DNA of 28,479 nt. Source: a virus. The position numbers and the translations under genes are program-made. The DNA lies in IMG/VR virus record IMGVR_UViG_3300042516_003651, positions 1 to 28,479 of that record. One strand, given 5' to 3'. Shown piece by piece: positions 2,114-20,903 of the stretch. Every line of letters begins with the position of its first letter. The first letter of the stretch is position 1. The notes beneath the pieces were generated by a model, which saw only the letters and a list, made by a program, of their open reading frames with translations, was not told the DNA's origin and did no database searches.

Positions 2114-3418
2114 ATGAATTCTATTCCTTGCTCAATCGAATCTGAGCAATACCTGCTCGGCGTTGTCATTCGGGACAATCTCGACCTCAACGAAATCGGA
2201 CTAAAGGCTCAGGACTTCTTTGAACCACGGCATCAGGACATCGCTCAAGCTGCGATTCTGTGTAAGCAAGACCTCATCGAAATTAACGAAATCAGCATCG
2301 GCTCAGTGCTTTTGTCGAAGGGGCTGAACTACACAACTTACATCAACGAGTGCACGACGAACGTCGGCTTTACTGCTCTGAACAAATTCTGGGCTCAGGA
2401 AATCAAACGCACAGCGAAACTCCGCCAGATTCAACTGCACGCTAAGAAGCTCCTCGACTACACAACCCAACCAGAATCCAACCCAGATGCTCTCCTCGAT
2501 TACGCCGAGGGAACTTTTAAGTCATTCAGTAGGGAAACGAAAACAGGACTTCAGGAGATGCAACTTAGTGCTCTGGCTGAATTCGACCGCAGCAACGATC
2601 CAGACCTCGTTATCGGAAAATACCGCTGGCTTTGCAAGGGTGGCTCGATGCTCCTCGTCTCACAATCCGGTGTCGGTAAGTCGTCGTTCACGATGCAATT
2701 CGTCATTAGTTTGTGCATTAAGCATCCTAAGGGGTTTTTCGGCATAGAAGCACCCAGACCGCTCCGAGTGGTAATCTTGCAGGCCGAGAACGACATCGGG
2801 GATGTGAGTGAATCCTTTCAGGACATCACCAAGGGAATGAATCTCGGCTACCCGGAAATGGAACTGCTTAAGGAGAATCTGCGAATCTTCCGCGACACTG
2901 CTTCCGTTGGTCCAGAATTCCTAAAGCGAATGCAGGAGCTCATCGTCCTGCACCGGGCTGATGTGTTCGTTGTAGACCCACTTTTATCCTTCGCTGGCAT
3001 CGAAGTTTCCGACCAAAAACAAATGACAGAATTTCTACGGCATGGCGTTGCTCGGGTGCTCGAGGAGACAGGGGCGGTTCTTTTAGCGGTGCATCACACC
3101 ACCAAGCCTCGGTCATCAAAAGACCGTGAGGGGCAAACAGACGCAGATTTAGCCTACTCTGGTGCTGGAGCATCGGAGCTCGTGAACTACGTCCGAGAGG
3201 TCGGAGTCCTGCAGCGAGCACAGGGATCAGAACCGATATTTAAATTCTCTTTAACTAAACGCCGTAACCGAGCAGGGATGAAGAACTTAGAAGGCGACTT
3301 CAGCCATGAAATCTACGTTCGCCATGCTCGGGACAGAAATTCTATCCGATGGGAATACAGCACAGCACCTGAACAGCCTCAGGAGCAAGAAAAACCATCA
3401 AAACGCCCGAAATTCTAA
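2114..3418 (+). CDS. Replicative DNA helicase, DnaB N-terminal plus RepA-like RecA core
   Basis: A 434-aa protein. Residues 1-~110 resemble the DnaB N-terminal domain (SIESEQYLLGVVIRD, a typical opening of DnaB-like proteins). Residues ~165-415 form a RecA/RepA-like ATPase core with Walker A QSGVGKSS (184-191), Walker B VFVVDP (284-289) and an AVHHTTKP motif (325-332), as in RepA-type hexameric helicases. The last ~20 residues are charged and probably disordered. It is the only clear replication-fork protein here. No primase or polymerase gene is recognisable, so host enzymes are presumably recruited. The 200-nt gap downstream carries repeats that may be the origin. Confidence 0.88.
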   Translation: MNSIPCSIESEQYLLGVVIRDNLDLNEIGLKAQDFFEPRHQDIAQAAILCKQDLIEINEISIGSVLLSKGLNYTTYINECTTNVGFTALNKFWAQEIKRTAKLRQIQLHAKKLLDYTTQPESNPDALLDYAEGTFKSFSRETKTGLQEMQLSALAEFDRSNDPDLVIGKYRWLCKGGSMLLVSQSGVGKSSFTMQFVISLCIKHPKGFFGIEAPRPLRVVILQAENDIGDVSESFQDITKGMNLGYPEMELLKENLRIFRDTASVGPEFLKRMQELIVLHRADVFVVDPLLSFAGIEVSDQKQMTEFLRHGVARVLEETGAVLLAVHHTTKPRSSKDREGQTDADLAYSGAGASELVNYVREVGVLQRAQGSEPIFKFSLTKRRNRAGMKNLEGDFSHEIYVRHARDRNSIRWEYSTAPEQPQEQEKPSKRPKF

Positions 3419-3464
3419 TTCCTTAATGCAACTTACTTGCAATCTCAAAACTGTCTCACCCGTG

Positions 3465-3500
3465 GAGAATGCTTCGGAGAATGCTTCGGAGAATGCTTCT
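3465..3500. repeat. Three 12-bp tandem repeats
   Basis: The unit GAGAATGCTTCG occurs three times in tandem at 3465, 3477 and 3489; the last copy ends in T in place of G. The array lies just downstream of the helicase gene and outside any supported coding region. Confidence 0.9.
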
Positions 3501-9383: not shown

Positions 9384-10169
9384 ATGAAATTCTTATCTAA
9401 AGCACTAAGCGGTCGCTCTCCTCTTTTAATCGACCCAATTGAGGCAAAGACGCACGCTGAGCGAGTGAGCACTTACGGAATCTCTGACTTACTCAGTCAA
9501 ATCTTTGGCGAAACCCCGAAACCTTATAAGGTCGGAAAATACGGCATCATCCCTGTCGTCGGTGTTATCGGTAAGGGACTCTCTCCGCTTGAGAAAATGA
9601 CAGGGGCTGTTGATTTAAACGAAGTCAGTCAGCAAATTGACGCTTTTCTATCCGACCAAGAAGTGCAAGAAATAGTGCTTCATATCGACTCACCAGGCGG
9701 AACTGTAACAGGTGTCGAGGAGGTCGCTCGTAAGATTCAAAATTCTACTAAGCCAACTACGGCTTATACCGACGGAATGATGGCATCAGCTGCTTATTGG
9801 CTCGGAGCGTCTGCTGATCGTGTCGTCGGCTCGCCTTCATCTGATGTCGGTAGCGTCGGCGTTTATATGGCTGTGCCTGATATGTCAGGACTTTACGCGA
9901 TGTCAGGCGTGCAAATGCTCGTGATTAAATCTTCGGCTACTCCTCTAAAGGCGGCTGGTCTCGAGGGCACGTCATTAAGTCAGGAGCAAATTGATTACTT
10001 CCAACAACAAGTGGACGAGATTTATACGGACTTCGTAGCGTCGATTAAACAGAAACGTAAATTCGTTGCTGAGGATGCTCTTAAAGGTCAAGCGATGTCA
10101 GGTAAGGTCGCCTCGAAAAAGGGACTTCTGACCGGATTGGCTGATTCACTTGGTGCGTTGTTAAAATGA
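9384..10169 (+). CDS. Head maturation protease, S49 (SppA/lambda gpC-like)
   Basis: A 261-aa peptidase S49 protein. IVLHIDSPGGTVTG (97-110) is the signature strand and oxyanion region. MMASAAYWLG holds the likely nucleophile S135. The general-base lysine is likely K182 or K189 in VIKSSATPLKAAG. In lambda, gpC cleaves scaffold and portal during head maturation. There is no signal peptide, so it works in the cytoplasm within the prohead. Lambda gpC carries the scaffold Nu3 at its own 3' end; here the protease ends at residue 261 and the scaffold region is encoded in the following gene, 18 nt downstream. Confidence 0.9.
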   Translation: MKFLSKALSGRSPLLIDPIEAKTHAERVSTYGISDLLSQIFGETPKPYKVGKYGIIPVVGVIGKGLSPLEKMTGAVDLNEVSQQIDAFLSDQEVQEIVLHIDSPGGTVTGVEEVARKIQNSTKPTTAYTDGMMASAAYWLGASADRVVGSPSSDVGSVGVYMAVPDMSGLYAMSGVQMLVIKSSATPLKAAGLEGTSLSQEQIDYFQQQVDEIYTDFVASIKQKRKFVAEDALKGQAMSGKVASKKGLLTGLADSLGALLK

Positions 10170-10187
10170 AAGAAATCTCAAATTACT

Positions 10188-11033
10188 ATGCCAGAAATTC
10201 TTGTTTCAGATATCGACGGAACGGTGCTCGATAACAATCAGCCAATTCAGGAAGTCATCGATTACATCAAGGAAGAAGGATACCCTGTTTATTTCTTAAC
10301 GAATCGACCAGAGTCTGACCGCCAGAAAACTATCGAGGACTTAAAGGCAACAGGACTCACTTATCGCAGACTCATTATGAACTCAGGGAATGACAGTGCT
10401 CCTGTTTATAAGAAATCAGAAATGCAGAAACTGCTCGATGAGGGTTTTGATCCACAGGAATTCATCGACGACTCAAAGGAAAATCGGGACGCTGTTGGCT
10501 CGCTTGGCGTTGAGACTATCGACCCAGCGGACATTATCGCTGAGTCACAAATGCAAGATTCTGGTGAGGATTCTGGTGAGGATTCTGGTGAAAATTCTGC
10601 TGAAGTTGCCAATAATAACAAATTTATGACCATCGAAGAACAACTCGTTAAGGCATCCGCTGAAATCTCTGCTGTCGTTACTGAACGCGACGAGATTCGT
10701 GTTGCTATGGAAGCACTTGTTGCAAAAGAGCAAACTGAATTAAAAGACCTCTCTGAAAAGGTCGGCGAACTCTCTGGTGCTTTGGAAAAGGTAACCGCTG
10801 AGAACGCTGAATTGCTGAACAAGATTTCTGAACTCCAAAAGAATCAAATCAGTGCTTCTGCTGAAGCGGCTAAGATTGCTTCTTCGGTTGGCGTAGATCC
10901 TGTTGAAATCAGCCCTGCTGATGCTCCTAAAAAAGCAGTGAGCCACTTAGAGGCATTTCTCTCAATGCCTGCTGGTGCTGAACGCAGTGCTTACTACGCA
11001 AAATATAAGAACGAAATCGTTCGTGGTTTATAA
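10188..11033 (+). CDS. HAD-like phosphatase domain fused to scaffold-like coiled coil
   Basis: A 281-aa two-part protein. Residues 1-~115 form a small HAD-superfamily domain: motif I DIDGT (D8, D10), motif II FLTNR (T38), a likely motif III lysine near K75/K76 and motif IV DD (94-95). A Ser/Asp/Gly/Glu repeat linker follows (about 124-139). Residues 147-281 are a charged coiled coil (KDLSEKVGELSGALEKVTAE) ending in a short basic region AYYAKYKNEIVRGL, which looks like a scaffold. It lies between protease and capsid genes, the scaffold position. The HAD domain may be an active phosphatase; its substrate is unknown. See the separate entry for the internal start. Confidence 0.8.
   Translation: MPEILVSDIDGTVLDNNQPIQEVIDYIKEEGYPVYFLTNRPESDRQKTIEDLKATGLTYRRLIMNSGNDSAPVYKKSEMQKLLDEGFDPQEFIDDSKENRDAVGSLGVETIDPADIIAESQMQDSGEDSGEDSGENSAEVANNNKFMTIEEQLVKASAEISAVVTERDEIRVAMEALVAKEQTELKDLSEKVGELSGALEKVTAENAELLNKISELQKNQISASAEAAKIASSVGVDPVEISPADAPKKAVSHLEAFLSMPAGAERSAYYAKYKNEIVRGL
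10557..10604 (+). repeat. 12-bp tandem repeat encoding the DSGE linker
   Basis: GATTCTGGTGAG occurs at 10557 and 10569, GATTCTGGTGAA at 10581, and a degenerate AATTCTGCTGAA at 10593. They encode DSGE-DSGE-DSGE-NSAE, an acidic flexible linker between the HAD and coiled-coil domains. The DNA-level identity suggests recent repeat expansion. Confidence 0.9.
10626..11033 (+). CDS. Possible nested scaffold protein from internal start
   Basis: The in-frame ATG at 10626 (residue 147 of the longer product) would give a 135-aa protein made only of the coiled coil and basic C-terminus. The sequence before it, AATAATAACAAATTT, matches this phage's usual G-free start leaders (compare the one before 13864) and lies right after the linker. 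In lambda, the scaffold Nu3 is made from an in-frame internal start inside gene C. The nested product here is an inference by analogy; it would allow many scaffold copies per HAD-bearing protein. Confidence 0.5.
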   Translation: MTIEEQLVKASAEISAVVTERDEIRVAMEALVAKEQTELKDLSEKVGELSGALEKVTAENAELLNKISELQKNQISASAEAAKIASSVGVDPVEISPADAPKKAVSHLEAFLSMPAGAERSAYYAKYKNEIVRGL

Positions 11034-11089: not shown

Positions 11090-11959
11090 ATGGCTAACTC
11101 CATTGTCGCCGCTCCCAGCGTTCTCGCTGAGTCGGTTATTGCTAACCTCAAGGGCAAACTTCCTGCCCTCAACGCTTTCTCGAGCAACTTCACTGCTGTT
11201 TCGAGCGGAGCTGGTAAAACTATCCAAGTGCCCTTAGTCGGAACTTCTGTTGCCGCTGAATTCGGTGCTTCTGGATATCTCGCTGAATCTAACGCTACTT
11301 TAACTAAGACTGACGTTACTCTCAAGCACTTCATCTCAACGCACCGCTTCCGTCCTATCGACGTGAAGGAATACGGAATGCAATTCCTCGTGAATTCTTT
11401 CGGTCCTTCCGCTGCTGACGCTATCGCTGCTAAGTGCCTTTCTGAAATCGGTGCTTTAATCACCAATGCTAACTTCACCTCGAACGTTAACACCGGTGCT
11501 GATATCACTTACGCTGAATTAGTTACTGCTAAGGGCGTTCTTGACGCTGCTAAAGCTGGTTCTCGTCGTGCTTTCATCTTGAACGCTGACTACACTAACG
11601 ACCTATTGGCTGACAGCCAAATCATCGGTGCTGCTGGTCTCGGTGCACAAGTTATCCAAAGCGGTTCTATCGGTCAAATCGCTGGTGCTTCTGTTTATCA
11701 ATTCACCGACCTCCCAACGAACAGCGAAAACCTCGCTGGCTTCGCTTGTGGTGCTGACGCTCTGGCTGTTGCTTCTGGTCTTCCTATGACCGAAATCGCT
11801 GGTGCTGAAGTTAGCCAAGCAACTGACCCTGAGTCTGGCATCACCATCCAAGTTGTGATGTTCCAGGAACAAGGCGGTTGGACGAATATCACTGCTGAAG
11901 TGCTCTTCGGTGCTGCTGTTGGTCGTTCGACCTCTCTGCATCGCCTCAAGACTGCCTAA
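11090..11959 (+). CDS. Major capsid protein (HK97 fold, putative)
   Basis: A 289-aa protein in the lambda E position. It has a small-residue-rich N-terminus, a beta-rich region IQVPLVGTSVAAEFG, a helical middle (SAADAIAAKCLSEIGALI), the segment KAGSRRAFILNADYTNDLL typical of capsid P-domain strand-helix units, and a C-terminal ITIQVVMFQEQGGWTNITAEVLFGAAVGR with the usual closing phrase of P22/HK97-type coats. Codon use is strongly biased (GCT, GGT, CTC, AAC), as expected for the most abundant virion protein. A strong intrinsic terminator follows at 11982. The 56-nt leader is G-free and AT-rich. Confidence 0.87.
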   Translation: MANSIVAAPSVLAESVIANLKGKLPALNAFSSNFTAVSSGAGKTIQVPLVGTSVAAEFGASGYLAESNATLTKTDVTLKHFISTHRFRPIDVKEYGMQFLVNSFGPSAADAIAAKCLSEIGALITNANFTSNVNTGADITYAELVTAKGVLDAAKAGSRRAFILNADYTNDLLADSQIIGAAGLGAQVIQSGSIGQIAGASVYQFTDLPTNSENLAGFACGADALAVASGLPMTEIAGAEVSQATDPESGITIQVVMFQEQGGWTNITAEVLFGAAVGRSTSLHRLKTA

Positions 11960-18941: not shown

Positions 18942-20903
18942 ATGCCACTCGAAGCTTACAGCCCAGGAACGGTTACTGTTGAACTCGGCTCTGATCCATC
19001 GACGACATTAGTTGTTGAACTCGGAACGCCCGGTCCGCAGGGGATTCAAGGTGAACCCGGTCAAAACGGAACAAACGGAACAAACGGACAAAATGGCGTA
19101 GGTGTGCCTGTCGGTGGCAGTGCTGGACAGGTTCTGGCTAAAATTGACGGAACGAATTACAATACACAATGGGTAACTAAAAACGGCGGAGTGTGGGGAC
19201 AGATTACAGGGACGCTGAGCAACCAGACGGATTTGCAGAATGCGTTGAATGCCAAATACGATGCTTCGAATCCCTCTGGGTATATTACTGTTTCGGCGTT
19301 GGCTCCGTATTTGTTATCGAGCACCGCTGCGAGCACTTATTTGACGCAGAGTAACGCGTCTTCTACTTACCTTACGCAGGCGAATGCGTCTTCTACTTAT
19401 CTTACTCAATCAAACGCGTCATCGACCTACCTAACTCAATCTAACGCGGCATCGACCTACCTAACGCAAGCGAACGCATCCTCGACCTACCTGACAATTT
19501 CCTCCGCCTCGGCGACTTACTTCCCGAAGCCTACAGGAACAACGGCTCAATACGTCGACGGAAGTGGTGCGTTGCAGAATTTCCCGACTGTCACAACGGC
19601 TGGTAAGATGGTAACTTCTGTAAGAAATAACACAGGTGCTACTTTAACCAAGGGAACGGTAGTTTATATCAACGGAGCGGTAGGTAATAAGCCCACGGTA
19701 GCAAAGGCACAGGCAAATACCGAAGTTACCTCCAAGGCAACTTTTGCTTTCGTTGAGGCAGATATCGCTAATAACGCAGACGGAAATGTCGTTCAAATTG
19801 GACTGCTCGAAAATTTAGACACTCAAGGATTCGCTGACGGCACTCTGATTTATCTGTCCCCGACTGTTGCTGGTGGCTGGACTTCTACGCAACCGTTTAG
19901 CCCGAATCATTATGTGGCTCTCGGAACGGTTATTCGAGGAAATCATCCTACGCTTGGAAGCATACAGGTAAGAATCAATAATGGATTCCAGCTCGATGAA
20001 ATGTCGGATGTCGGAGCAGTGAGCCCGACGAATAACAACGTTCTCACTTGGAACGCAGCGACCTCCCAATGGCTTGATAAGTCTATTTCGACGATTCTTG
20101 GATATACGCCTGCTGATGATAGTTTGGTTCTGAAGAAGGCGAGTAATTTGAGCGATCTCCAGAGTGCGTCAGTGGCTCGTGGGAACCTCGGGCTGGATTA
20201 TGCGACGGATGCACAGGTGATTGCTGGAACTTCGACTTCGGTTGTGTTGAATCCATCGAACGCCCAGCAATTAAGACCTATCTTTGACTACGGCCCTATT
20301 GAATTAGGGATGTATAGTTGGTCAACGGCTACAACTGGCGGTTTCTTTGTAAGTGCTGGTGCATCGATGCATAAGTTTATCAATTCACAAACAGCAGTCG
20401 GATATGGTGTTATTTATTTAGGATTAACAGGAAATGGAAGAACAAACACAGCACAAACTACAATCGATTTTTCAAAGAAGATTTTGTTTTCTGCTCGTTG
20501 TGGTGTTACAAATCCTTCCAATAATAATACAACTTGGAGATTTATGGTTGGTAAATCATCATCTTCGACTGTCGCTGGTGATTTGGCTGTTCGTGGATTT
20601 GGATTTAAGAGAGTAGGAACAGGTGCTTTGCAGTTAATTGTGCATAATGGCACTTCTTTGACATCAGTAACCTCAAGTTTCACTCCAACAAGTTCTGCTG
20701 CTTTTGATATTACATTTAATTCTGATGGTGCAGGAAATGTGATAATGTTAGTTAATGGAAACCAAGTCGCATCTTCTTCTGCTGGCCCTACTGCATTGGG
20801 TGTTTCAAATGGTTCTATCTTTTTTGAAAATGAGAATACTGCAACAACAACAGGTTCTGGATTTGTCAATTTCCAGCATCCACGAATTGATTTAGGAGTA
20901 TAA
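18942..20903 (+). CDS. Tail fibre with collagen-like and 10-residue repeats
   Basis: A 653-aa fibre. Residues 1-27 likely attach it to the tail; 28-54 are collagen-like GXY triplets (GTPGPQGIQGEPGQNG); a GGSAGQVL segment follows, common in phage fibres. Residues 131-190 are six 10-residue repeats around STYLTQxNAS, probably a trimeric shaft. Further beta-rich shaft follows, and the C-terminal ~180 residues look like a jelly-roll/LamG-like receptor-binding head (FMVGKSSSSTVAGDLAVRG). The last ~600 nt are visibly more AT-rich than the shaft, suggesting module exchange. It should decide host range together with the 17531 protein. Confidence 0.85.
   Translation: MPLEAYSPGTVTVELGSDPSTTLVVELGTPGPQGIQGEPGQNGTNGTNGQNGVGVPVGGSAGQVLAKIDGTNYNTQWVTKNGGVWGQITGTLSNQTDLQNALNAKYDASNPSGYITVSALAPYLLSSTAASTYLTQSNASSTYLTQANASSTYLTQSNASSTYLTQSNAASTYLTQANASSTYLTISSASATYFPKPTGTTAQYVDGSGALQNFPTVTTAGKMVTSVRNNTGATLTKGTVVYINGAVGNKPTVAKAQANTEVTSKATFAFVEADIANNADGNVVQIGLLENLDTQGFADGTLIYLSPTVAGGWTSTQPFSPNHYVALGTVIRGNHPTLGSIQVRINNGFQLDEMSDVGAVSPTNNNVLTWNAATSQWLDKSISTILGYTPADDSLVLKKASNLSDLQSASVARGNLGLDYATDAQVIAGTSTSVVLNPSNAQQLRPIFDYGPIELGMYSWSTATTGGFFVSAGASMHKFINSQTAVGYGVIYLGLTGNGRTNTAQTTIDFSKKILFSARCGVTNPSNNNTTWRFMVGKSSSSTVAGDLAVRGFGFKRVGTGALQLIVHNGTSLTSVTSSFTPTSSAAFDITFNSDGAGNVIMLVNGNQVASSSAGPTALGVSNGSIFFENENTATTTGSGFVNFQHPRIDLGV
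19332..19511 (+). repeat. Six 30-bp repeats in the fibre gene
   Basis: Units start at 19332, 19362, 19392, 19422, 19452 and 19482, with a degenerate seventh at 19512. Each encodes a variant of STYLTQSNAS. Third positions differ between early (TCTACTTA) and later (TCGACCTA) units, showing the array is not a single recent expansion but has two sub-families. Confidence 0.88.

Follow-up and report, generated by a model that had tools for sequence, protein, structure and literature searches.

The open reading frame that lies between the head protease and major capsid genes of the analysed window, the whole 28,479-nucleotide stretch of the IMG/VR virus record IMGVR_UViG_3300042516_003651, is best read as a nested head-assembly gene that would yield both a HAD-linker-scaffold fusion and the scaffold alone, with the fusion carrying the HAD domain into the prohead. 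We put the probability of this reading at roughly 60%. As the initial annotation had proposed, a HAD-type head and a scaffold-like tail indeed share one ORF (Table 1), and the tail occupies the expected position in the gene order. The gene is flanked by the head protease and capsid genes, an arrangement that is kept in relatives, and in the window the small terminase, large terminase and portal genes, assigned with Pfam and PHROG, are all located upstream of the protease, fusion and capsid genes.

Table 1. Features of the fusion ORF and its neighbours in the window.
Feature	Coordinates	Strand	Description and evidence
Fusion ORF	10188-11033	+	281 aa; HAD domain, acidic linker, helical scaffold-like domain
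HAD domain, capless, PNKP-like	10188..10544	+	Residues 1-119; ATG 10188; Pfam/PHROG, AlphaFold, Foldseek; start-context score 7.61
Swapped cassette extent	10173..10581	+	blastn of the window against L006, L008, L009
Acidic tandem-repeat linker (DSGE repeats), predicted disordered	10555..10605	+	TRF; pLDDT <50, residues 126-145
Putative internal-start leader	10601..10625	+	GTTGCCAAT box (TTG[AC]C at -20) and A-rich AATAACAAATTT; box frequency, codon constraint
Scaffold-like domain, candidate in-frame start Met147	10626..11033	+	Start-context score 7.37; starts of headless relatives; AlphaFold
S49/ClpP-type head maturation protease	9384..10169	+	Upstream neighbour; PHROG head maturation protease 8.7e-51, Pfam Peptidase_S49 4e-22
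Major capsid protein	11090..11959	+	Downstream neighbour; PHROG major head protein 4.9e-12

The two ends of the 281-residue protein are joined by the acidic tandem-repeat linker that had been noted behind the HAD domain and that was recovered by TRF as a 12-nt repeat in 4.2 copies with 87% match, encoding DSGEDSGEDSGE. The AlphaFold model has pLDDT values of 94-98 over residues 1-110 and the low values given in Table 1 over the linker, and its tail consists of one helix (residues 149-234) followed by C-terminal helices (253-280). From the gene order and these predicted helices we infer that the tail is probably a phage scaffold; the family libraries yielded no significant match to known scaffold families (best phrog_4866, E 0.36). 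The matches of the tail in the PDB were all to unrelated, generic coiled coils and were dismissed as chance similarity. Note that the similarity of the tail to the C-terminus of the Clp-like protease of Verrucomicrobia phage P8625 is just a 36-residue coiled-coil match (E 0.007), and homology is not claimed. Two other repeat tracts were seen in the window: 30-nt tandem repeats (STYLTQ-type) at 19335-19492 within a large tail-fibre-like ORF (18942-20903) that has a collagen-like start, and three perfect copies of GGAGAATGCTTC at 3464-3499, directly after an ATPase-like gene (2114-3418).

The assignment of the head to the HAD phosphatases was upheld by three Pfam matches that all exceed their curated cut-offs (Acid_phosphat_B 3.9e-12, Hydrolase_6 4.3e-9, Hydrolase_3 6.5e-6), and by a confident AlphaFold model with a Rossmann-like fold for which Foldseek returned the 3'-phosphatase of T4 Pnkp as the best solved match (E 1e-6), along with other HADs. 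The domain also matches a PHROG polynucleotide kinase profile (7e-16) and, in a profile comparison, bacterial Pnkp1 (E 1.1e-6), and 17 of 17 HAD homologues tested matched PHROG polynucleotide kinase phosphatase profiles. The HAD_PNKP profile remained below its curated threshold, with 19.2 bits vs a cut-off of 27.6. As judged by these profiles the domain is PNKP-like, not a filed PNKP member. All four HAD motifs, DxDx[TV] (I), T/S (II), K/R (III) and an acid (IV), are present, and in the window ORF they comprise D8-I-D10-G-T12, T38-N-R40, K75 and D94-D95. In an alignment of 28 full-length homologues D8, D10, T12, T38, R40, K75, D94 and R100 are invariant. The catalytic core named in the initial annotation is thus intact in the homologues, with DxDxT and the first acid of motif IV retained, but the literal DxDGT and DD94-95 are not conserved. 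Both are a minority form, because most homologues carry Asp in place of Gly11 and Asn in place of Asp95, DIDDT and IDN being the commonest readings, and the second motif-IV acid varies between DD, DND and DNRxD. Since the first seven of the invariant residues never change, catalysis is plausible, and likely on the evidence of these residues. At about 119 residues the domain shows no obvious cap, and the usual substrates of capless HADs are macromolecules. Going by the fold, our best guess for the substrate is a phosphomonoester on a macromolecule, for instance a nucleic-acid 3'-phosphate.

To see how widespread this arrangement is, loci were collected with fusion-protein, capsid-protein, HAD and scaffold-alignment queries and a six-frame profile scan, and distinct DNA stretches were counted. 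With '=' denoting parts that share one ORF, we found protease/HAD=scaffold at 58 distinct loci, protease/helical=HAD=scaffold at 12, protease/helical=scaffold at 15, and protease/scaffold with no recognised head at 13, of which L005-L007 and L011 carry a stub; the partial loci include 6 further cases of HAD=scaffold. The search for synteny in other phages thus returned 76 distinct loci (58 + 12 + 6), mostly from IMG/VR, with HAD in frame with the scaffold, counts in which the sequences are related and hence non-independent. Their linkers are 22 to 38 aa long and in frame every time, and dN/dS is ~0.29 in the HAD and ~0.29 in the scaffold. A HAD domain whose ORF lacks the scaffold was not found among the distinct loci, except for contig-end cuts and the frameshifted contig L058. 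In principle the HAD could be an unrelated accessory gene that fused by accident at a permissive spot and has no part in head assembly, as the insertion spot does differ between near-identical phages. Yet an intact arrangement with separate ORFs does not occur among the 76 distinct HAD loci, and the same HAD fold is found in BFVD, at 36-38% identity, in proteins bearing the name 'Prohead protease', such as A0A6J5MQJ8 and A0A6J5NAI8, so that we regard such an accident as very improbable.

The cellular genomes that match the fusion are limited to five contigs, all from Verrucomicrobiota/Opitutae MAGs, and among characterised phages P8625 has the nearest capsid protein, with 25% identity over 97%. 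Because of these two observations the host is probably a Verrucomicrobiota bacterium; the MAG contigs may be binned phage sequence. The GenBank phage set held no characterised phage with a HAD-scaffold fusion, and no paper on a natural fusion of this kind was found in the open-access literature, which was incompletely covered.

Comparison with the closest relatives indicates that several in-frame cassettes, the HAD head among them, can take each other's place, and that headless relatives exist. The window is about 89-96% identical in DNA to L008, which has a headless stub, and to L009, which has a helical head, on both flanks of the head (blastn), and this homology breaks off at 10172 and is picked up again at 10582/10590. 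Near-identical phages have another, helical domain at the head position (L009) or a mere stub (L005-L008), the latter being an L009-type start (MKVPD) joined to a window-type linker, and the first bases of the L009-type start, ATGAAAG, are retained in the window directly upstream of the HAD. The phrog_2859-type helical domain of L009, which also occurs in an annotated prohead protease of Pontimonas phage phiPsal1, takes the same in-frame slot before the same scaffold and is sometimes stacked with the HAD, from which it differs in fold; no solved structure matches it. As this helical domain is part of prohead proteases annotated in other phages and the HAD, by protein name, of those in BFVD, both modules recur in head-assembly proteins. 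In L055 and L056 the scaffold is headless and the protease bears a Cys-rich C-terminal extension, LLCQNCVFYRGPRGCGLVEGDIDPNGICKLWVIP, upstream of 3501, with a weak iron-oxidase (HiPIP-like) match (E 0.003); it may represent a further module at this junction. L009 further contains an HNH-like endonuclease ORF (1791-2270) before the small terminase that is absent from this place in the window.

Being a replaceable cassette, the head would be an accessory enzyme or adaptor outside the core function of the scaffold. Should it be an adaptor, retained like the helical cassette for binding of the protease, portal, capsid or DNA rather than for catalysis, one would understand why it is interchangeable and stacked with a domain that does not look enzymatic, why Gly11 and the second motif-IV acid are free to vary, and why some phages manage without any head. 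The strict invariance of D8, D10, T12, T38, R40, K75 and D94 in all aligned homologues is, however, what catalysis demands, and we consider a purely structural role rather unlikely.

The proposal that the scaffold has a start of its own at ATG 10626 (Met147), preceded by AATAATAACAAATTT, was borne out insofar as this codon is start-like in its context, in its codon conservation and in the starts of headless relatives. In a start-context weight matrix built from 38 starts of the window (AUC 0.94), ATG 10626 and the HAD start obtained the scores listed in Table 1. Real starts had a median of 4.21, and ATG 10626 falls into their top quarter; its score is reached by 0 of 119 other in-frame internal ATGs. 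Six headless relatives (L019, L020, L027, L029, L031 and L032) start at the homologue of Met147, and in L019, L027, L029 and L031 the scaffold begins directly after the protease stop. In L055 and L056 four and seven codons are found ahead of the scaffold Met, and in L131 a single codon separates stop and scaffold Met. Codons at identical residues of the AT-rich window and of 36 GC-rich homologues were compared. Their identity was 0.93 over the leader, taken as the ten codons that precede Met147, 0.73 over codons +1 to +7 and about 0.38 elsewhere, and no codon triplets in the gene score better than VAN and TIE, which are situated on either side of the Met147 start. Note that within the GC-rich set (e.g. 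L066) synonymous conservation at HAD codons 17-23 is as strong as in the scaffold leader; because of this second constrained stretch the 36-gene profile alone is not decisive, and the decisive comparison is that of the GC-rich homologues with the AT-rich lineage of the window.

The nucleotides of the leader are moreover shared whether it is coding, as in L034, or non-coding, as in L031, and its AAGGGTA is read in differing frames among relatives. A TTG[AC]C box is found 18-34 nt upstream of the scaffold start in 61 of 68 distinct leaders, for a chance rate of 4%; in the window it lies at 10601-10607, and it is conserved whether the leader is coding or non-coding. We discarded the box as a -35 promoter element, as by eye no suitably spaced -10 element is seen and transcription would begin inside the ORF. 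RNAalifold predicted no pairs, and hence no conserved RNA hairpin, at the leader in 12 sequences.

A second in-frame start that would yield the scaffold alone is thus well supported by comparative and context evidence, although the codon constraint around ATG 10626 could have another cause. If only the full-length protein were made, the internal ATG would be a relic of an ancestral headless scaffold gene, with leader and start conserved for other reasons. Because each HAD shares its reading frame with the scaffold, the full-length product is surely encoded; the headless forms, too, look ancestral, or else derived via simple cassette loss. A relic should decay, however, whereas synonymous conservation between the AT-rich and GC-rich clades is highest in the leader and start codons, and the context of ATG 10626 has kept its rank among real starts. 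A single product therefore appears unlikely to us.

In the nested arrangement that we prefer, translation from ATG 10188 would produce the HAD-linker-scaffold fusion and translation from ATG 10626 the scaffold alone. The short form would serve as bulk scaffold, with which the long form would co-assemble via the coiled coil and the C-terminal helices. In this way the prohead would take up HAD domains in limited number, as that of lambda takes up the C protease through the Nu3 tail. The scaffold would next be cleared by the S49 protease, which would probably also cleave the disordered acidic linker and so free the HAD inside the head. More tentatively, the scaffold may act as a standing delivery tag onto which Verrucomicrobiota phages splice exchangeable heads (HAD, helical, both or none), so that a capped number of phosphatases is loaded per prohead; these may then stay in the virion and be delivered alongside the DNA. 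This wider scheme is conceivable, but we would not expect all of it to hold.

Nested genes for protease and scaffold are already known, but a non-protease enzyme that is conserved on a phage scaffold and exchanged as a cassette between near-identical phages appears to be undescribed in the literature searched, and it suggests that in these viruses the scaffold serves to carry an enzyme into the head as it grows. With HAD, helical domain, stub or no head on the same phage, nature moreover provides a comparison set in which the role of the head is directly testable.

In fold and catalytic layout the HAD domain resembles the 3'-phosphatase domain of T4 Pnkp and bacterial Pnkp1, but it lacks their kinase domain and is joined to a scaffold-like domain instead; the 'DDR' of motif IV in Pnkp corresponds to DD-S or DN-R here, and the phosphatase function is a prediction. 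The closest parallel in gene architecture is phage lambda, where gene C encodes a protease with the scaffold Nu3 nested in frame. The interactions of C and Nu3 have been described (PMC3224144). Both systems occupy the same genomic slot between the portal and capsid genes, both have an enzyme head in frame with a scaffold that has its own internal start, in our case a candidate one, and in both the enzyme would reach the prohead by way of the fusion. In contrast to lambda, the protease here is a separate ORF, and the scaffold is instead joined to a HAD domain that is exchanged or absent in close relatives; the likeness to lambda is one of logic and not of parts. Phage P8625 has a longer Clp-like protease (NC_029047.1 7350-8342; L012 4987-5979) with a coiled-coil end right before the capsid gene, which resembles a protease-scaffold fusion of the lambda style. 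Finally, the scaffold of phage P22 tolerates N-terminal enzyme fusions, which are packaged (PMC9962691), and these share with the HAD-scaffold protein the N-terminal enzyme and a retained C-terminus of the scaffold, which in the present protein would likewise bind the capsid. The P22 fusions are man-made, whereas the fusion described here is natural and conserved, and it would represent the natural counterpart of engineered enzyme packaging in P22.
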